Shown: positions 2,974-11,710 of the stretch, piece by piece | Layout: each line of letters opens with the position of its first letter | Position numbering within the stretch: the first letter of the stretch is position 1 | DNA from: an uncultured Eubacteriaceae bacterium | GTDB lineage: Bacteria > Bacillota > Clostridia > Lachnospirales > CAG-274 | Assembly (NCBI GenBank): GCA_946534775.1 | Contig: CAMNCZ010000010.1 | Coordinates: 1 to 12,335 of the forward strand | Length of the DNA stretch: 12,335 bases | Direction of reading: 5' to 3' | The notes under the pieces: model-generated | What the model saw: the letters and a program-made list of their open reading frames with translations, nothing else | What the model was told of the DNA's origin: nothing | The model's database searches: none | Position numbers and translations under genes: made by a program

Positions 2974-5667
2974 ATGAAAGAAAACAGACTGAACGTTAAA
3001 CTGCATATTACGGCATTTTTTGCGGCAGCTGCGGCGCTGTTTATCGCTTATGCCCTGAACGGAGTATATCCATTCGGGACGGGCAGCGTGCTTACGGCGG
3101 ACCTGCAAAGCCAGTATATTGATGTTACGGCGGCTTTTTTTGACCAAATAAAAAACGGCGAAAACTTTTTTATAACCTGGAAAAGCGGCTTAGGCAGCAA
3201 TTTATATGCTATTGTGCTGTATATTATGGCAAATCCCCTCAGTCTGCTTTTTTTGTTTTTTGATAAAACACACTATCAGGAAGTTTATTTTGCGGTGCTT
3301 GTTATAAAAGTCGGTTTTGCGGCATTTTGCTGTTCCGTTTTTATGTACAAAAGCAAAACGGCCGATATAAAAAACTTTTTTTTGAATATTGCGTTTTCGC
3401 TTTGCTATGCGCTTTGCACCTGTATAGTAAAGTATACAATAAACCCGATGTGGATAGAAAACACTGCGCTTTTGCCGCTTTTGCTGCTTGGCGTTGAAAG
3501 AGTTTTGCAAAAAAGAAAGTTCGGGCTGTTTTTGGCTGCGGCTGCGGGCTGTTTTATAACAAATTATTATCTGGCATATATGTCGGGGCTTTTTGCGATA
3601 ATTTATTTTATCTATTGCGCTTATTTGTGGGAATGTGATAAAAAAACAGTATACCGTGCGCTTGGTATCTGCGCATTGTCTGCGGTTCTGGCGGTGGGTA
3701 TGGCAATGTTCGTTATCCTGCCGTCGCTTACGGCTATAGCCAATACTTACACCGACGTTGTCGGGGTAGGCACGGACAGCAGTTTGTTTAAATTTCCGCC
3801 GCAGGATATTGCTTTTACCTTTACCCATATAATGAGTTACTATACGGCAAGCGGCTACCCGAACGCCTACTGCGGTACGGCGGTGATACTGCTTGTTGTG
3901 GCGGGGCTGTTTAATAAAAATATCCCGAAACGCGAAAAAAAGGCAGCTGCGGCGGTATTACTGCTTTTTATGCTGAGCCTTTTGCTGCAGCCGCTTTATG
4001 TGGTATGGCATCTGTTCAGGGCGCCGACGGGCTTTGACGGCAGATTTTTATACGGTACAGTGCTGTTTTTGATAATATTTGCCGCACGTTCGCTTAAAAA
4101 TATCAATGCTTTGGGTAAAAAAAGGCTTGCCGTTTCGGCTGTTATTATTTTTGCGGCAGCCAATCTGGGCGTTATCGACAAAATAAATCAATATTATCTT
4201 TTAAGCCTTGCGGCGATACTTGTGCTGCTTGCGGTATACTGCACCGTATTTTGCACAAACAAAAAAACGGCTGTTTTTGCAGTTATAGTGATATCGGAGA
4301 TGTTTATTGCAACAATAAACAACATAAGGATAATAAACCTTTGGGACGTGTACGGCGCCCACAGCGATTATATAAAATACACCACGGCTTACAAAAACGC
4401 TTTTGATGAACTTTTTAAGGAAGATGATTCGTTTTACCGCAGCGATATCGACCAGAAAGGCACTTACAACGTGTCTATGTCGATAGGAAACAATGCGCTT
4501 AACCATTTTTCTTCGCTTGCAAACCAAAAGACGTTCAACACTATGAGTATGCTCGGTGTTATGCTGTTTTCGGAAAATAAGGTTTTGCTGCCGATAGGGC
4601 AGGATATTGTGACGGACTCGCTGTTTAATGTAAAATATTTCGGCGTTATGGATAAAAACGACTATATCGACGACAGCACGGACAGACGTATGTATTTCAA
4701 TTCCGCCCGTCTTACAACGGGATATTACGAAAAATTCAAGGAATACGGCGATACCGTTTTTTATAAAAATAATTTGGTGTTTCCGCTGCTGTTTGCGGTG
4801 ACGGATATGGCGGAGTATCACCCCGACTACCGTAAGGGAGAATTTTTTACAAACCGCGAAAAAATGTTTGAAAATATGTTTGTCGAAAAGGCGGATATAG
4901 AGAAACTTGATGAGGATAATATGTTTTCGCTGCGGCCTGACCTGTATAAAATGATATGGTTTAATGATGTACAGGCGGTAAACTGCGAGATAGGCGGCGG
5001 CAGAGACGATATATTGGATATACGGCTTGTCAATAAACCCGCAGATAAACTGCTTGCCGAAACACCCGAAGAAACGGGTGTGGTAAAATTCAGTTACAGG
5101 GTTGAAAAGGCGGGCAACTACAGTACCGTCTTAAATGCGGATTTTGCCAAAAACGCGGTCGTTTCAAAAATGTGCGGGTGGTATATAAACGGCATTAATA
5201 TCCCTATCTTGCAGATGAAAAACGAGTATAAAGACTTGGGTTGGTTTGAAGAAGGCGATATTATCGACCTGTCATATATTTCCTATCTTGATACAACAAT
5301 AGAAAGGCCGAGCCTTTATCTGCTTGATGATGAAGCGTTTGCGGAACTTTCGCGCAAGGCAAACGAAAACGCGCTTGAAAATATAAGGCTTGAAAAGGGA
5401 AATATAGCCGCCCAAAGTAATTTTGACAGGGAAAGGCTTGTGTTTGCCTCAATAGCTTACGACAAAGGCCTCAGGCTTTACATCGACGGCAAAGAAAGCG
5501 AGTACAAGGATATTCTTGACGGTTTTATGGGCTTTTATGTGCCTGCGGGCAAACACGATATACTTATAGATTATGTAAGTACGGGCGCTTACAGCGGACT
5601 TGAAATTTCGGCACTGTTTGCCGCGGTATCGATCGTATGGGTGGTTTTATCCAAAAGGAGAGAATAA
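2974..5667 (+). CDS. YfhO-family polytopic membrane protein (GT-C-like)
   Basis: An 897-residue membrane protein with a long hydrophobic N-terminal half of about 12 likely helices (residues 10 to about 445), a soluble domain probably outside the cell (about 450-870) and one C-terminal helix (about 872-893). Family-type features include VYPFGTGSVLTADLQSQY (31-48), whose D43 lies in the first loop where GT-C enzymes keep a catalytic acid. Others are WKSGLGSN (69-76), WIENTALLPLLLLGVERVL (160-178) and a P351/R357 segment before a helix. The C-terminal beta module has LYIDGKE and VPAGKHDILIDY elements typical of YfhO. B. subtilis YfhO (about 860 residues) takes part in glycosylating lipoteichoic acid, so a role in envelope sugar transfer is inferred and the substrate is unknown. 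GGAG at 2963-2966 supports the start. It lies 51 bp after trkH and 12 bp before potA. Confidence 0.85.
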   Translation: MKENRLNVKLHITAFFAAAAALFIAYALNGVYPFGTGSVLTADLQSQYIDVTAAFFDQIKNGENFFITWKSGLGSNLYAIVLYIMANPLSLLFLFFDKTHYQEVYFAVLVIKVGFAAFCCSVFMYKSKTADIKNFFLNIAFSLCYALCTCIVKYTINPMWIENTALLPLLLLGVERVLQKRKFGLFLAAAAGCFITNYYLAYMSGLFAIIYFIYCAYLWECDKKTVYRALGICALSAVLAVGMAMFVILPSLTAIANTYTDVVGVGTDSSLFKFPPQDIAFTFTHIMSYYTASGYPNAYCGTAVILLVVAGLFNKNIPKREKKAAAAVLLLFMLSLLLQPLYVVWHLFRAPTGFDGRFLYGTVLFLIIFAARSLKNINALGKKRLAVSAVIIFAAANLGVIDKINQYYLLSLAAILVLLAVYCTVFCTNKKTAVFAVIVISEMFIATINNIRIINLWDVYGAHSDYIKYTTAYKNAFDELFKEDDSFYRSDIDQKGTYNVSMSIGNNALNHFSSLANQKTFNTMSMLGVMLFSENKVLLPIGQDIVTDSLFNVKYFGVMDKNDYIDDSTDRRMYFNSARLTTGYYEKFKEYGDTVFYKNNLVFPLLFAVTDMAEYHPDYRKGEFFTNREKMFENMFVEKADIEKLDEDNMFSLRPDLYKMIWFNDVQAVNCEIGGGRDDILDIRLVNKPADKLLAETPEETGVVKFSYRVEKAGNYSTVLNADFAKNAVVSKMCGWYINGINIPILQMKNEYKDLGWFEEGDIIDLSYISYLDTTIERPSLYLLDDEAFAELSRKANENALENIRLEKGNIAAQSNFDRERLVFASIAYDKGLRLYIDGKESEYKDILDGFMGFYVPAGKHDILIDYVSTGAYSGLEISALFAAVSIVWVVLSKRRE

Positions 5668-5679
5668 GGGGGACAAAAA

Positions 5680-7251
5680 TTGAAAAAACTGATTCAATTT
5701 AAAAATATAGTAAAAGAATTTGACGGGGAGATAGTTTTAAAGGGTATAAACCTTGATATTTACGAAAACGAGTTTGTGACCCTTCTCGGGCCGTCGGGCT
5801 GCGGCAAAACGACACTTTTGCGTATTTTGGGCGGCTTTTTGGATGCGACACAAGGCGAGGTGCTTTTTGACGGGAAGGATATTTTAAGTGTACCCGCTTA
5901 TAAGCGCGAGATAAACACGGTTTTTCAGAAATATGCGCTTTTTCCGCACCTTAATGTGTACGACAATATCGCCTTTGGACTTAAAATAAAAAAAGAACCG
6001 CGTGATATAATCGAACAGAAAGTTATGCGTATGCTAAAACTTGTGGGGCTTGAAGAATTCGGAAAGCGCAGGGTGAGTGAAATGAGCGGCGGCCAGCAGC
6101 AGCGTGTTGCGATAGCCCGCGCACTTGTCAACGAGCCGAAAGTGCTGCTGCTTGATGAACCGCTTGGCGCACTCGATTTAAAATTAAGGAAAGAAATGCA
6201 GCTGGAACTTAAAAAGATCCAGCAGGAAGTCGGCATCACCTTTATTTTTGTAACGCACGACCAGGAAGAAGCGCTTACGATGTCCGACAAGATAGTTGTA
6301 ATGCGAAACGGCGAGATATTGCAGACGGGTACGCCCACGGATATCTACAACGAGCCGAAAAACCGCTTTGTTGCCGATTTTATAGGCGAAAGCAATATTA
6401 TTGACGGCATTATGAAAGCCGACAGGCAGGTTATTTTTGAGGATAAGCTGTTTGAATGCGAGGATACGGGTTTTGCGGAAAACGAGGCCGTTGAGGTGGT
6501 CATCCGCCCCGAGGACCTTGATATAGTGCCCGTAAATGCGGGAAAACTGAACGGTACCGTGCGTTCGGTGCTGTTTAAAGGCGTGCATTACGAGACCATT
6601 GTGGAAACGAGAAGCGGCACAAGCATCACCGTTGAAATGACCGTTTCCGACAGCAAGCCCGTCTGCAATCCCGCTGCCGACGAGGAAATGAGTGCGAACG
6701 ATTTTTATTTGGATGTTACGGATATAGAGGAACTGACAAAGGCCGATATAATCGCCCGCGCCGATGCACAGGCCTGGAAAACGTCAACAGAGGAACTTGT
6801 TTCCATATCAAAGGTGGAATATGAGATAAAGGCCGAAAAAGGCCGATATCCCGTTACGTTTTTTACGCAGGCGGGTACAATGACCACCGTTGAAATGATA
6901 GTAGATGACGTAAACAAGGTAGATGCCAAAAATGAGACTATCTATGCCGTTAATATATACAAGACCATAGATGATATAAAAGAGAGTATCGCGCTTGATA
7001 CCGACCTGAAAACCTGGGCGAATGCTCAGGCCTGGACAAACGACGGCGAAGATGCGGTCGCAGTCACCGATGTGGAATACAGTTTCGATCCCGAAAACAT
7101 AGAAACGGGCAAGTATAAAATAACCTTTAAAACACGCGGTTACGAGTATAAAATAGATACCACGGACAAGTATGAAGAGGGTATGCGCGTGGGGCTGGAT
7201 TTTACGCCGAACGATCTGCATATAATGCATAAAGAAGGGGGCGGACGATAA
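5680..7251 (+). CDS. potA: PotA, polyamine ABC transporter ATPase with an Ig-like tandem insertion in its TOBE domain
   Basis: ATP-hydrolysing subunit of the spermidine/putrescine importer encoded with potBCD. The ABC domain (about 5-240) is intact: Walker A GPSGCGKT (37-44), Q-loop Gln83, signature MSGGQQQR (135-142), Walker B VLLLDEP (155-161), D-loop ALD (164-166) and switch His193. A TOBE_2 regulatory domain begins near 240 (VVIRPEDL 273-280, [14 protein letters not shown] 292-305). It is interrupted after R311 and resumes at G487 (GYEYKIDTT through [15 protein letters not shown]). The roughly 175-residue insert makes the protein 523 residues instead of about 350-370. The start is TTG at 5680, preceded by AGGGGGA (5667-5673). 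It is preferred because PotA proteins begin with this same short lead-in before FKNIVKEF, and no in-frame ATG lies near. The stop overlaps the potB ATG by 1 bp (TAATG). Import function is well supported; the effect of the insert is unknown. Confidence 0.93.
6613..7137 (+). repeat. In-frame 525-bp insert in potA encoding two tandem Ig-like modules
   Basis: Residues 312-486 of PotA have no counterpart in ordinary PotA. They split into repeat 1 (T317-T402) and repeat 2 (T403 to about Y488). Aligned landmarks are TVEM (317-320 and 403-406), AQAW (363-366 and 449-452), VEY (379-381 and 465-467) and GxYxxTFxT (388-396 and 477-485, three residues later in copy 2). In DNA, CACCGTTGAAATGA recurs at 6627-6640 and 6885-6898, and CAGGCCTGGA at 6769-6778 and 7027-7036, both exactly 258 bp (86 codons) apart. 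The pattern of a Tyr-x-Val-Thr-Phe-Thr strand ending in a GT-x-x-x-V-x-M-x-V-x-D strand resembles the Ig-like/bacterial surface-repeat beta sandwiches of Firmicutes. The family assignment comes from memory of pattern, not from a search. Confidence 0.8.
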
Positions 7252-8087
7252 TGAAAGTACTGCGCAGGTTCGTGTACCCCTACATAGTGTGGGCAGCGGT
7301 AATGATATTGGTGCCTATGCTTATGATACTTATATATGCCTTTACAAAAGAGGGCAACTCGGTACGCAACTTTATGTTTTCGCTTGACAGCTTCAAACGC
7401 TTTTTCAGCGATCCCGTATTTGGAGAAGTGCTTAAACGATCGCTTGTGATAGCGGTGCTGACAACCTTTTTCTGCATACTTTTCGGCTATCCTGCGGCTT
7501 ATGCTATGGCAAGATCGCGCTTTAAGATACAGCTTGTGCTGCTCACTACCATACCTACCTGGATAAATATGCTGGTGCGCACCTACGCCTGGCGCGGTAT
7601 GCTTGATAACAAAGGCCTTTTGAATACATTTTTCGGCTTGTTCGGCGTTGGCCCGTTTAAAATGCTGGAAACCACATTTGCCGTGGTACTCGGTATGGTT
7701 TACAATTTTATACCGTTTATGATACTGCAAATTTACAATTCACTTGAAAAGATAGATAAAAGCTATCTGGAGGCGGCGGCGGACCTTGGTGCAAACCGCG
7801 TGCAGGTTTTTTTGAAAGTGACACTGCCGTTGAGTCTGCCGGGCGTGATAAGCGGCATAACACTTGTTTTTCTGCCCGCTGTTTCAAGCTTTTTTATCCC
7901 CAAATTACTGGGCGGCGGAAAATATGTGCTGATAGGCAATGTTATCGAAAATCAGTTTCTTACCGCGGGCGACTGGAGTTTTGGCAGCGCCATATCGCTT
8001 ATAATGGCGGCGGTGATAATAATTTCTATGTATATCACAAGATATATAGATAAAAAGACGGATCCCGAAGGGGGTGCGGCATTATGA
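7251..8087 (+). CDS. potB: PotB, polyamine ABC transporter permease
   Basis: First inner-membrane permease of the spermidine/putrescine importer, 278 residues with about six helices starting at residue 10. The segment PTWINMLVRTYAWRGMLDNKGLLN (102-125) and the cytoplasmic EAA loop EAAADLGANRVQVF (174-187, ending in TLPLSLPG at 191-198), which docks on PotA, are typical of PotB/PotH-type permeases. The ATG shares one base with the potA stop, and a GGGGG-containing site just upstream serves as the Shine-Dalgarno. The 3' end overlaps potC by 4 bp (ATGA). This coupling suits the one-to-one PotB:PotC stoichiometry. The length is normal and nothing is missing. Confidence 0.95.
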   Translation: MKVLRRFVYPYIVWAAVMILVPMLMILIYAFTKEGNSVRNFMFSLDSFKRFFSDPVFGEVLKRSLVIAVLTTFFCILFGYPAAYAMARSRFKIQLVLLTTIPTWINMLVRTYAWRGMLDNKGLLNTFFGLFGVGPFKMLETTFAVVLGMVYNFIPFMILQIYNSLEKIDKSYLEAAADLGANRVQVFLKVTLPLSLPGVISGITLVFLPAVSSFFIPKLLGGGKYVLIGNVIENQFLTAGDWSFGSAISLIMAAVIIISMYITRYIDKKTDPEGGAAL

Positions 8088-8923
8088 AAAACGAAAATAA
8101 CATAAAACCGAAAAAGAAAAAAGGAAGTACGATACGCAGGCTGTATATCCTTGCAATGCTTGTGTTTTTCTATATGCCTATAGTATATACGGTAGTGTTT
8201 TCGTTTAACAATTCAAAATCGTTAAGTACTTTTTCGGGCTTTTCGCTGCAATGGTATCAAAAAATGTTCCATAACAAGGATATGGTACATTCGATTTTTT
8301 ATACTATTGCAATAGCGGTGCTTGCGACCATCGTATCGACCTTTGTCGGCACACTGACGGCGATAGGTCTCTCAAAAAGCAACCGTATAATAAAAGCGGC
8401 GGTGGAACAGATAAACGATATGCCGATAATGAATCCCGATATAGTGACGGGTATAGGCCTTTTGATGTTTTTCAGCACGCTTGCGGTAAAAAAAGGGTTT
8501 ATGACGCTGCTGCTTTCGCATATTATGTTTTGCATACCTTATGTTATTTTAAGCGTAATGCCGAAACTGCGCTCGCTTGACCCGAACCTGCTCGATGCGG
8601 CGCTGGATCTCGGCTGTACCCCGATACAGGCAATAACAAAGGTAATTGTGCCGCAGATAACATCGGGCATAGTTTCGGGCGCGCTTATAGCCTTTACAAT
8701 GAGTTTTGACGATTTTGTCATAAGCTATTTTGTAACGGGCAGCGGCGTAAACAACATATCCATTATGGTGTACACTATGTCAAAGCGCGTAAATCCGTCA
8801 ATAAATGCGCTTTCTACGGTAATAATAGCAATAATTACGGCAGTGCTTGTTGTTATAAACACGGTGCCCGTAATAATCGAAAAAATAAGAAATATTAAAA
8901 ACAAAAGGAGAAGTACAATATGA
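8084..8923 (+). CDS. potC: PotC, polyamine ABC transporter permease
   Basis: Second membrane permease, pairing with PotB to form the translocation path. It has 279 residues: a basic cytoplasmic N-terminus (KPKKKKGS, 8-15), a first helix near 19-40, and FNNSKS (41-46). The PotC-type segment NDMPIMNPDIVTGIGLLMFF spans 111-130. The EAA loop DAALDLGCTPIQAI covers 171-184 and continues through PQITSGI (190-196). The strongly conserved FTMSFDDFVISYFVTG lies at 204-219. The start codon lies in the ATGA overlap with potB, and the stop lies in an ATGA overlap with potD. The sequence is complete and of normal length. Substrate class (polyamine) follows from these family segments together with potA and potD. 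Confidence 0.95.
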   Translation: MKNENNIKPKKKKGSTIRRLYILAMLVFFYMPIVYTVVFSFNNSKSLSTFSGFSLQWYQKMFHNKDMVHSIFYTIAIAVLATIVSTFVGTLTAIGLSKSNRIIKAAVEQINDMPIMNPDIVTGIGLLMFFSTLAVKKGFMTLLLSHIMFCIPYVILSVMPKLRSLDPNLLDAALDLGCTPIQAITKVIVPQITSGIVSGALIAFTMSFDDFVISYFVTGSGVNNISIMVYTMSKRVNPSINALSTVIIAIITAVLVVINTVPVIIEKIRNIKNKRRSTI

Positions 8924-10017
8924 AAAAGTTTTTATCTGTAATTACCGCTTTGGTGCTGGCATTGTCCGTAAGCGCCTGCGGACAAAGTTCGGGCGGCACG
9001 GGTGCCGCAAATGCGGGCAGTGAGGCAAATGTCGGCTCGGGCACACTCAAGCTTTTCAACTGGGGTGAATATATAGGCGAAGATACTATCGCAAATTTTG
9101 AGGAAGAGTATGGTGTAAGGGTAATATCGGATTATTTCGATTCAAACGAAATGATGTATACAAAACTGCTGGCAGGTGAGGCCTACGATGTGCTCGTACC
9201 ATCGGATTATATGATAGAACGCCTTATCGCGGAGGACCGCCTTCAGCCGTTAGACAAAAGCAAGATAACAAATTTCGATAACTTGTGCGACAACCTTAAA
9301 GGTTTGGGCTACGACCCCGATAATACCTATTCCATACCTTATTTCTGGGGTAGTGTGGGCCTTGTTTACAACAAAAACAATGTTGACAGGGCGGAACTTG
9401 AAGAAAAGGGCTATAATATACTGCGCGATGAAAAGTACAAGGGCAATATCTATATCTATGACTCCGAGAGAGATGCGTTTATGGTGGCATTCAAGGCGCT
9501 TGGCTACTCGATGAACACCGAGGACGAAAACGAGATAAACGAGGCCTTTGAATGGCTTAAATCCCTTAACGACACTATGGAACCCGCTTATGTTACCGAT
9601 GAAGTTATCGATGCAATGGCAAACGGCAACAAGGATATCGCGGTGGTTTACAGCGGTGATGCGGCTTATATACTTGAAGAAAACGAGGATATGGATTTCT
9701 TTATGCCAAACGAGGGTACAAACATCTGGTCGGATGCTATGGTCATCCCCGCAAATGCCGAAAACCCCGAACTTGCAAACGAGTTTATAAACTATATCCT
9801 TACTTATGAACCTTCGCTTGACAACAGCCTTACGGTAGGCTACAGCTCGTCAAATAAAGAGGTCCTTGAAGAACTCAGCGGCGAAAACGGCGATTTTTAC
9901 GGCAACACCGCCTATATCCCCCGCGAGGGCTATGAAAAAGACGAAATATTCCACGATAACGAAGTGCTTAAAAAGAAACTTTCCGAACTGTGGATAAAGG
10001 TAAAGGCCGCAAATTAA
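8920..10017 (+). CDS. potD: PotD, polyamine-binding lipoprotein
   Basis: Substrate-binding receptor that delivers spermidine or putrescine to PotBC. It has 365 residues with a lipoprotein signal peptide: MKK, a hydrophobic core, and lipobox SVSAC with Cys20 as the lipidated residue. A Gly/Ser/Ala-rich linker (21-40) follows. Binding-protein motifs are LFNWGEYI (45-52), YDVLVPSDYMIERL (89-102), YSIPYFWGSVGLVYN (137-151), DSERDAF (181-187), VVYSGDAAY (242-250) and NIWSDAMVIP (268-277). W48, Y51, W270 and D272 fall in the segments that line the polyamine pocket of E. coli PotD. Which polyamine is preferred cannot be read from sequence alone. AAGGAG at 8905-8910 precedes the ATG, which overlaps potC by 4 bp. 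A hairpin follows 45 bp after the stop, so this is probably the last gene of the unit. Confidence 0.95.
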   Translation: MKKFLSVITALVLALSVSACGQSSGGTGAANAGSEANVGSGTLKLFNWGEYIGEDTIANFEEEYGVRVISDYFDSNEMMYTKLLAGEAYDVLVPSDYMIERLIAEDRLQPLDKSKITNFDNLCDNLKGLGYDPDNTYSIPYFWGSVGLVYNKNNVDRAELEEKGYNILRDEKYKGNIYIYDSERDAFMVAFKALGYSMNTEDENEINEAFEWLKSLNDTMEPAYVTDEVIDAMANGNKDIAVVYSGDAAYILEENEDMDFFMPNEGTNIWSDAMVIPANAENPELANEFINYILTYEPSLDNSLTVGYSSSNKEVLEELSGENGDFYGNTAYIPREGYEKDEIFHDNEVLKKKLSELWIKVKAAN

Positions 10018-10267: not shown

Positions 10268-11710
10268 ATGAAGAAAAATTTATTGCTTAAACTTACATCC
10301 TTAGGTCTTGCCGTTGTTATGGCATCGGGTATGACAGCCTGCGGCAAACAGGCGGAAGAAGAGGTTGTTGAGGATAACAAGCCCGAATCTATCTCTATGA
10401 CGTTTGACAGCTGTATGTCGTTTGAAAACGGCGTTGAGGATGTGCTTGCAAAGTATAAGGAAATGACAGGCATAGAGCTTACACTCAACAAGCCCGATCA
10501 CGACCAGTACTATGAAAAAGTGACACTCGAATTTGCAACGGGCAAGCCGTCTGATGTAATTGAGATGGGTGCTGCTTACTATCCGCAGAATGCGGCAGAC
10601 AGAAACCTCTGGGATATGACAAGGGCGTGGGAAAAAACTACAGCCCCCGCAAAGGACATTGTTGACCCCACTTATATAGAGGGTCTTAAAATCGACGGCA
10701 AGCTTTACGGTTTCCCGACTGTTGCGGGCAACGGTACGGTAACTTATGTAAGACAGGATTGGCTTGACGAAGCAGGTATCGATATGCCGAGCGATTATGC
10801 GGGCTTCCTTGATATGCTGCGTGCATTCAAGGCAAGGGGCAACGATATAATCCCCATTACCGCAGCGGGTGTGCTTAATGGCGATGAACCTTATGATATA
10901 TTTATGAGAGAATTTTATCAGGATGCTACCCCCGATTTTTATAAAAACGCAGACGGAGTTTGGGTAGACGGTTTCTCGGAAGAGAATATGAAAGCGGCAA
11001 TGCAGCGTTTCCGCGATGCTTACGCAGAGGGTCTTATCGACCAGGAAGTTATCACAAACGATACAAAGTCCTGCCGCGAAAAATTTAAAAACAACCTTGT
11101 AGGCGCATTCAACTACTGGGCAGGTTCATGGGGTGCTAAGCTTGAGGACAGCGCACCGGGTAGCAAGCTTGCCGCTATGCCCGCCATTGCGGAAGTTAAA
11201 TCTACGGGCGGATATACGGGCCGTACACCGCTTGCAATGGTCATCAACTCAAAATGTGAAAACCCCGAGGGTGTGTTTGAACATCTTATACTCTTCTCGC
11301 ACGACGGCGGTGAGGGCCAGAAACTTTTCACTTACGGTGTAGAGGGCATACACTATCAGGCAAACGAGGACGGTACTATTACCGCACTTCCTCAGAAGGC
11401 AGACCCTACAAAAAATGTTGAAAAAACTTTCTATGCGCCCGAATATTCCATTACGACCTGGGCAGACCCGATGGCGCTTGACCCGCGTATCACTCAGTCG
11501 CTTGATGTATATCATCAGTGCTACTCGATCGCGCCCGTACCGCCTGCATCAAAGGTCCTTTCGGAAAACCGCACCAAGATAGACGAGATCAAAAACAGGG
11601 TAATGGCCGATGTTGTTCACGGCAACAAAACGCCCGACGAGGCAATGGAAAAGTATGTAAGCGATTCTCAGCAGTATGTTGAGGCTGTGCTTGCAGATCT
11701 TTCAAAATAA
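10268..11710 (+). CDS. Family-1 extracellular solute-binding lipoprotein (sugar-type ABC receptor)
   Basis: A 480-residue secreted lipoprotein. The signal peptide starts MKKNLLLK and ends in lipobox GMTAC with Cys25, followed by an acidic linker (QAEEEVVEDNKPE). The mature part has the layout of carbohydrate ABC receptors (SBP_bac_1 fold). An early strand and helix (SISMTFDS, then VEDVLAKYKEMTGIELTL) lead to YYEKVTLEFATGKPSDVIEMG. The ligand-side segments LWDMTRAWEKT and GKLYGFPTVAGNGTVTYVRQDWLDEAGID follow, then a C-lobe with YWAGSWGAKLEDSAPGSKLAAMPA. The ligand is not identifiable; sugar or oligosaccharide is the family default. No permease or ATPase gene is adjacent, so it must use a transporter encoded elsewhere or act as a stand-alone receptor. 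It has its own promoter and leader. Isoleucine codon use is more mixed and less ATA-heavy than in the trk-pot genes, which suggests higher expression. Confidence 0.85.
   Translation: MKKNLLLKLTSLGLAVVMASGMTACGKQAEEEVVEDNKPESISMTFDSCMSFENGVEDVLAKYKEMTGIELTLNKPDHDQYYEKVTLEFATGKPSDVIEMGAAYYPQNAADRNLWDMTRAWEKTTAPAKDIVDPTYIEGLKIDGKLYGFPTVAGNGTVTYVRQDWLDEAGIDMPSDYAGFLDMLRAFKARGNDIIPITAAGVLNGDEPYDIFMREFYQDATPDFYKNADGVWVDGFSEENMKAAMQRFRDAYAEGLIDQEVITNDTKSCREKFKNNLVGAFNYWAGSWGAKLEDSAPGSKLAAMPAIAEVKSTGGYTGRTPLAMVINSKCENPEGVFEHLILFSHDGGEGQKLFTYGVEGIHYQANEDGTITALPQKADPTKNVEKTFYAPEYSITTWADPMALDPRITQSLDVYHQCYSIAPVPPASKVLSENRTKIDEIKNRVMADVVHGNKTPDEAMEKYVSDSQQYVEAVLADLSK

Follow-up and report, generated by a model that had tools for sequence, protein, structure and literature searches.

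The potA gene of the locus analysed here (hereafter the window, a stretch of 12,335 nucleotides from an uncultured Eubacteriaceae bacterium) raises the question of what about 175 extra residues are doing inside the regulatory domain of a cytosolic transport ATPase, and where they came from. The gene heads an operon with three overlapping genes (potB, potC and potD, named from NCBIfam matches under the respective cut-offs), and the gene order in the window is: trkA-trkH, a gene for a PgfM/YfhO-like membrane protein, potA-potB-potC-potD, a second gene of the solute-binding type, and rplS. The PotA protein scores above the cut-offs of two curated PotA models, NF043075 (558.1 versus 550) and TIGR01187 (381.6 versus 355.6), and under that of the PRK09452 PotA model (422.9; cut-off 482); the elements that we take to be Walker A, signature, Walker B and the switch histidine are all intact in its translation. 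The best NCBIfam match of the potC product, NF043073, is a spermidine/putrescine permease model, with PotC NF007047 next, both under their cut-offs. Judged from sequence, the potABCD operon of the window probably encodes a polyamine ABC importer. An Rfam scan of the window gave no match.

The original prediction had placed an insertion of about 175 residues (312-486) inside the TOBE domain and had described the ATPase core and both TOBE halves as intact, and this description held in the alignment with insert-less PotAs, in the AlphaFold model (AF2) and in the VIA structural comparisons, in which PotA/MalK-type structures superpose end to end around the insert. The N-terminal TOBE part ends with the hairpin strand b3 (residues 304-311) and the C-terminal part begins with the hairpin strand b4 (residues 488-494), the insert occupying the turn between them. 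E. coli PotA (PDB 8y5f, PotABC) shares the ABC core and the TOBE domain (46% identity over 343 residues, aligned to residues 2-518 of the model) without the 175-residue hairpin insert, and its chain 8y5f_A aligns with the whole core and both TOBE halves. The insert-less PotAs of related Clostridia (L128-L136, L138-L142, L103, L104) have a core 62-71% identical to that of the insert-bearing PotA and, in the regions chosen, an adjoining potB as well, whereas their hairpin turn consists of a few residues; the flanks are alike in both types (HTTDY..VG.EVGL in the insert-less L128 and in L123). It is very probable that two tandem Ig-like beta-sandwiches sit in the b3-b4 turn while the ATPase and TOBE folds are kept whole. 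The insert consists of two units of 87-88 aa which are 37% identical to each other (hhalign probability 99.3, E 2.7e-20).

Table 1 Features of the potA operon and parts of the PotA insert in the window. Strand letters (G0, A-F, G1) are our own labels.
Feature	Position	Strand	Description and basis
potA	5680..7251	+	523 aa, TTG start; NF043075 558.1 bits, cut-off 550
ABC ATPase core of PotA	5680..6387	+	residues 1-236; Pfam ABC_tran at 20-162, E 5.4e-39
TOBE/regulatory domain, N-terminal part	6388..6612	+	residues 237-311; Pfam TOBE_2 at 273-336; insert-less PotA alignment; DSSP of the model
Insertion	6613..7137	+	residues 312-486, in the b3-b4 hairpin turn of TOBE; insert-less PotA alignment, AF2 model, VIA
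Repeat unit 1	6613..6876	+	residues 312-399; strand G0 and strands A-F of Ig1
Strand G0	6622..6648	+	residues 315-323, predicted to complete Ig2; insert-only model pLDDT, E319-K478/K480 covariation
Ig-like domain 1 (Ig1)	6673..6909	+	residues 332-410; most VIA matches at about 30-108 of the insert model
Repeat unit 2	6877..7137	+	residues 400-486; strand G1 and strands A-F of Ig2
Domain 2 (Ig2)	6934..7134	+	residues 419-485, homologous to domain 1, probably discontinuous (with G0)
Dense conserved run in Ig2	6994..7026	+	residues 439-449
TOBE domain, C-terminal part	7138..7230	+	residues 487-517; insert-less PotA alignment, model strands
potB, permease	7251..8087	+	best NCBIfam match PotB NF007044, 238.2 bits, under cut-off
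potC, permease	8084..8923	+	best NCBIfam matches NF043073 and PotC NF007047, under cut-off
potD, substrate-binding protein	8920..10017	+	best NCBIfam match PotD NF007048, 189.7 bits, under cut-off

The insert is predicted to fold apart from the TOBE domain: the AlphaFold models (full-length PotA, mean pLDDT 88.7, pTM 0.66; insert only, mean pLDDT 87.9) give two separate beta-sandwiches, with short helices in each module, and, with a pTM of 0.66, we treat the position of the insert relative to the core as uncertain. The predicted sandwich superposes on solved Ig-like domains, and bacterial Ig-like domains (Internalin K, ZmpB, Big_3, S-layer) predominate among the best structural matches, which are those of the first sandwich, so the term Ig-like is valid for the insert as a predicted fold. 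Bacterial surface Ig-like domains are extracellular. Those to which the insert was compared (Internalin K, ZmpB INT, Big_3 2kpn, SlpX, Rib) have the predicted beta-sandwich in common with it, at 8-18% identity among the best 20 VIA rows, but the modules of the insert carry short helices, unlike the surface domains. Foldseek searches with the insert model yielded no match at E ≤ 0.001 in the PDB and nothing at E ≤ 0.001 among viral models, and two sequence searches of solved structures gave nothing significant (best E 0.097 in one, none in the other).

Both units open with a G-type strand and close with an F-type strand, so that each unit is permuted relative to the usual Ig domain. The pLDDT of the insert-only model is 59 over its first ten residues (TOBE strand b3, whose partner domain is missing) and 93 over the next ten (strand G0), and it drops to 74 and 64 in the final blocks (strand b4). 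Direct-coupling analysis (251 sequences among the matches listed, effective number 68) gave E319-K478 and E319-K480, both linking G0 to strand F of Ig2, as two of the strongest couplings; some other strong couplings lie outside the proposed topology (V271-Y488, A270-S338, T393-Y488/Y490). When antiparallel bands were scored against random segment pairs, G0-F2 ranked in the top 3.4%, F1-G1 at 4.2% and b3-b4 at 6.5%, the alternative pairings b3-G0 and F2-b4 at 47% and 57%, and G0-F1 at an intermediate 15%; the null contains true contacts and the sequence set, drawn from the matches listed, is small, so this coevolution support is suggestive. Together with the model confidence, it suggests that the final strand of Ig2 may be supplied by the segment preceding Ig1. 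In the proposed topology, TOBE strands b3 and b4 would remain paired, G0 would pair with strand F of Ig2, and the TOBE hairpin would be lengthened upwards, G0 prolonging b3 and F2 prolonging b4; Ig2 would thus consist of G0 plus residues 419-485, with Ig1 (332-410) nested between.

At the sequence level, little is established on the family of the modules. The window's insert alone had no match at E 1 in a Pfam scan. The scan was then extended to the whole insert alignment of 46 members, and some of these were scanned singly for scores (listed to E 0.1 or to E 0.005); the weak matches were to Phage_tube_C (34 members), SdrD_B (19), Ribophorin_II_2nd (16), PKD_4 (5), Big_3 (2) and Wzt_C (2). One member, L088, exceeds the Phage_tube_C (PF20608) cut-off (25.7 versus 24.1), but no stretch of it passes by itself, the best piece having 17 residues; every other insert-piece score shown is under its Pfam cut-off. 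The 34 Phage_tube_C matches are those at E 1 or better, with other scores shown of 14.6-22.4; most of the aligned pieces span 17-39 residues at the F-G hairpin, and none of them reaches significance by itself. The scan gave no such match for the window's own insert. This signal, which lies at residues of about 473-491 (window about 7096-7152) and in the equivalent part of module 1, could be the sole sequence-level hint of the modules' parentage. The matches to Wzt_C (PF14524), a domain with another position in its own protein, reach at best E 0.0011 (19.4 bits; cut-off 30.4), and 29 PHROGs families are weakly touched, each by at most 6 of the 46 members (best E shown 0.0012).

An origin from a surface protein, implied by the original prediction of surface-protein-like Ig modules, is where that prediction parted from the results: the Ig-like label stood as a predicted fold, and descent from a surface Ig family was not borne out by the searches. 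The two Big_3 (PF07523) matches score 16.2 and 17.5 against a gathering cut-off of 21.2, and no surface Ig family was matched above its cut-off in the Pfam scans; profile-profile comparison of the insert with 30 Big_3 domains from large proteins of relatives gave probabilities of 0.71 and 0.41 (equalled by 6 of 40 and 16 of 40 shuffles), versus 99.89 for two halves of the Big_3 set compared with each other as a positive control. Searches of 37 and 391 genomes with the insert profiles found weak matches outside PotA. Those in the 37 genomes were in G016 and G010 (E 0.0015 and 0.042) and G005 (E 0.17) with the profile, and in G016, G036, G059 and G039 (E 0.02-0.07) with a single insert sequence; the G016, G010 and G036 matches fall inside what are presumably conjugation-type ATPases, and that of G005 covers 28 residues of a large protein whose start resembles a signal sequence. 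Five of the 391 genomes had weak matches (E 0.001-0.05); by reading, three fall in proteins resembling an S8 protease, a phosphorylase and PNPase, one in a short frame of lipoprotein type and one in a frame next to a gene that looks like a methyltransferase. We take these matches as chance.

The architecture is not rare, contrary to the first impression, and the same insert was found widely among PotA homologues of Clostridia, gut species included. A protein search with residues 308-492 retrieved 2481 proteins at E ≤ 0.01 among 3263 candidates, and a second, with the insert version from another family of the order, 2189 of 2470 candidates, the two sets overlapping; Roseburia hominis and Schaedlerella sp. 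are among the best 120 of the 2189. Among the matches listed, those with a name are mostly called just 'ABC transporter ATP-binding protein'. A one-genome-per-species scan gave 155 insert-bearing loci, of which 80 were kept for analysis; their titles name Clostridia, its families or just Bacillota, with one 'Traorella', and they include Tyzzerella sp. An114, the isolate Anaerotignum lactatifermentans DSM 14214 and the complete chromosome of Clostridium sp. ASF356. The potA frame was recovered in 78 of the 80 loci (77 at 519-528 aa; L097 cut by a contig end), potB and potC lie downstream in 79, the remaining locus stopping at a contig end, and 72 have a potD-like match: the insert-bearing PotA is widespread and linked to potBC. 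In the wider samples, the insert was found in 4 of 391 genomes across the class (the profile gives the same number) and in 3 of 398 across the phylum, of which two belong to another class. In the family of the window, 24 of 37 genomes carry it, one truncated by a contig end. Eleven of the 13 insert-less genomes of this family (G029 and G034 left out) were searched with the PotA model, and their best frames reach 310-413 bits (cut-off 550) and are 42-53% identical to the window core; since none of 14 control genomes, E. coli included, reaches 550, the cut-off is strict, and what the result shows is that a close insert-less PotA did not turn up in the family, which is not to say that PotA is absent.

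The insert seems to go back to a single event in an ancestor among Clostridia. A PotB-like gene at E ≤ 1e-40 is present in 216 of 294 genomes across the order, and 40 regions were chosen from them by PotB identity for the comparison of PotA: with PotB identity of at least 57%, the insert was present in 24 of 24 regions; at 48-52% and with a readable potA, it was missing in 14 of 14; the remaining two were G502 (PotB 53%), which ends at a contig edge, and G023, with a distant ATPase. In a tree of PotA cores without the insert (42 rows), all 25 insert-bearing rows fall on one side of one branch (support 100/97), as do all 27 in a second tree of 43 rows (support 100/97), for which two rows from another class (L201, L202) were added and the long-branch row L106 was dropped. 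No loss of the insert was seen among the rows sampled in either tree, and survey and trees together fit one gain followed by inheritance and by transfer of the whole gene. L201 and L202 (genomes G904 and G976) are insert-bearing PotAs in another class; L201 adjoins Anaerotignum relatives in the tree, a position suggesting that potA moved horizontally together with its insert. The G023 protein (L106/L121) is an insert-less PotA-like ATPase within the window's family, with a core 53% identical and a very long branch, and perhaps belongs to a different transporter.

Conservation within the insert is concentrated in Ig2, whose helix segment (430-452) scores 0.845 versus 0.715 for that of Ig1. Eight of the 11 positions of the run 439-449 (L439, T441, D442, K444, W446, A447, N448, A449) are conserved at 97-100% in 251 sequences, and this stretch is, on sequence conservation, the likeliest functional surface. 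The insert is also acidic, with a mean net charge of -22.2 (range -29 to -16, 64 sequences) versus -1.2 for the ABC core. A special acidity of the insert was weakened by the background: among 588 same-length windows of mechanically called ORFs from the same loci, 15.5% had a charge of -18 (that of the window's insert) or lower and 11.1% of -22 or lower, which makes the insert only moderately unusual. Of nine insert-less PotAs, seven already have an acidic regulatory domain, with a net charge between -11 and -13 over about 110-122 aa; the remaining charges are -2 and -3.

What the insert does can be approached from the E. coli transporter. According to PMC11414716, spermidine lowers the ATPase activity of E. 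coli PotABC, and the authors propose that it binds the negatively charged PotA regulatory domain, calling for further investigation. The insert would enlarge this acidic domain, and the nearly invariant TDLKTWANA stretch, with the conserved acidic residues of Ig2, would form a contact surface for cytosolic polyamine or for the regulatory domain of the other PotA; binding would then adjust ATPase activity as product feedback. Because of the acidity of the background and of the insert-less PotAs, we regard the insert as a regulatory add-on to the PotA control domain with evenly balanced confidence, consider polyamine itself a doubtful, putative ligand, and keep a clamp and a docking role as rivals. 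Taken as a whole (a PotA subtype with an Ig pair of single origin, a nested topology and a regulatory mechanism), the explanation is tentative, and its boldest form, in which the insert would sense polyamine in the cytosol as a nested Ig-like pair with discontinuous Ig2 and would serve many Clostridia, through the PotA regulatory domain, as a dedicated off-switch of import, is unlikely.

One rival, somewhat improbable in our estimation, is a structural clamp that merely stabilises the PotA dimer or complex, with no sensing. Regulatory domains make dimer contacts in MalK-type ATPases, so that the position of the insert would suit such a role, as would the lack of any loss in the sampled clade, but the sister PotAs L128-L130, with cores about 70% identical, manage without it. 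A second possibility, to which we give a rather low probability, is that the Ig pair is a cytosolic handle for protein-protein contacts which brings a regulator, an enzyme or another partner to the transporter: Ig-like sandwiches are common binding modules and the conserved TDLKTWANA run is a possible interface, yet no partner gene is fixed beside the operon in the locus stretches examined (crude clustering, 78 loci).

A selfish or neutral passenger tolerated in the hairpin turn is very improbable. The turn is a permissive site and, by mean pairwise identity of 74 sequences, the insert is less conserved (0.65) than the ABC core (0.82; TOBE-N 0.72, TOBE-C 0.65), but dN/dS in six pairs was 0.058-0.130 for the insert, similar to the 0.035-0.119 for TOBE-N and in most cases higher than the 0.019-0.066 for the ABC core (TOBE-C was computable in only three of the six pairs; absolute values are rough because synonymous sites are near saturation), 44 of the 175 positions are conserved at 97% or more over 251 sequences, and protein length hardly varies among those 77 of the 80 loci that are complete. 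The insert evolves under purifying selection. An assembly chimera in the window's metagenome bin, which the fragmented genome (369 contigs, 70.56% complete) could have favoured, has a negligible probability and was rejected, as the 80 kept loci, isolates and complete chromosome included, share the architecture.

Returning to a regulatory add-on as the preferred reading, trans-inhibited importers offer parallels: in ModC (TOBE/Mop) and MetN (C-terminal, ACT-like), a regulatory domain of the ATPase senses the imported substrate. By analogy, they may serve as a model for the mechanism proposed for PotA, the added domain being different. The Wzt-type ATPase of O-antigen exporters resembles the insert-bearing PotA in carrying a beta-sandwich on a cytosolic ABC ATPase; that domain is C-terminal to the ATPase and binds glycan. 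Wzt has one domain after the ATPase, whereas the insert-bearing PotA has two inside TOBE. The transporter is thus known and the architecture was not found described: no account of a PotA with such an insert turned up in the open-licence PubMed Central literature (titles and abstract starts).

Even for E. coli PotABC, the proposal on how the importer senses the internal polyamine pool calls for further study according to PMC11414716, and the clade-wide enlargement of a suspected regulatory domain, with sisters lacking the insert at about 70% core identity, provides a ready comparison. The results also suggest that an Ig-like pair can become a lasting part of a cytosolic ATPase, and that Pfam leaves this domain pair unannotated in thousands of database proteins.

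In the surroundings of the operon, besides pot and ABC genes, the commonest neighbour cluster is an HTH-type regulator (26 of 78 loci, crude clustering); by reading, this HTH-like gene encodes about 186 aa and lies about 570 bases upstream of potA, for example in L087. In the window, that place is taken by the gene for the 897-aa membrane protein (2974-5667), between trkAH and potABCD, whose top match is the glycosyltransferase PgfM2 (E 3e-57, far under the cut-off) and which has a relative in only one of the 80 insert-bearing loci. Downstream, at 10268-11710, lies a gene for a 480-aa protein that lacks NCBIfam matches at E 1e-10 and has no adjoining permease within the window; by reading it is of the solute-binding type, and it has a relative in only two of the 80 loci.
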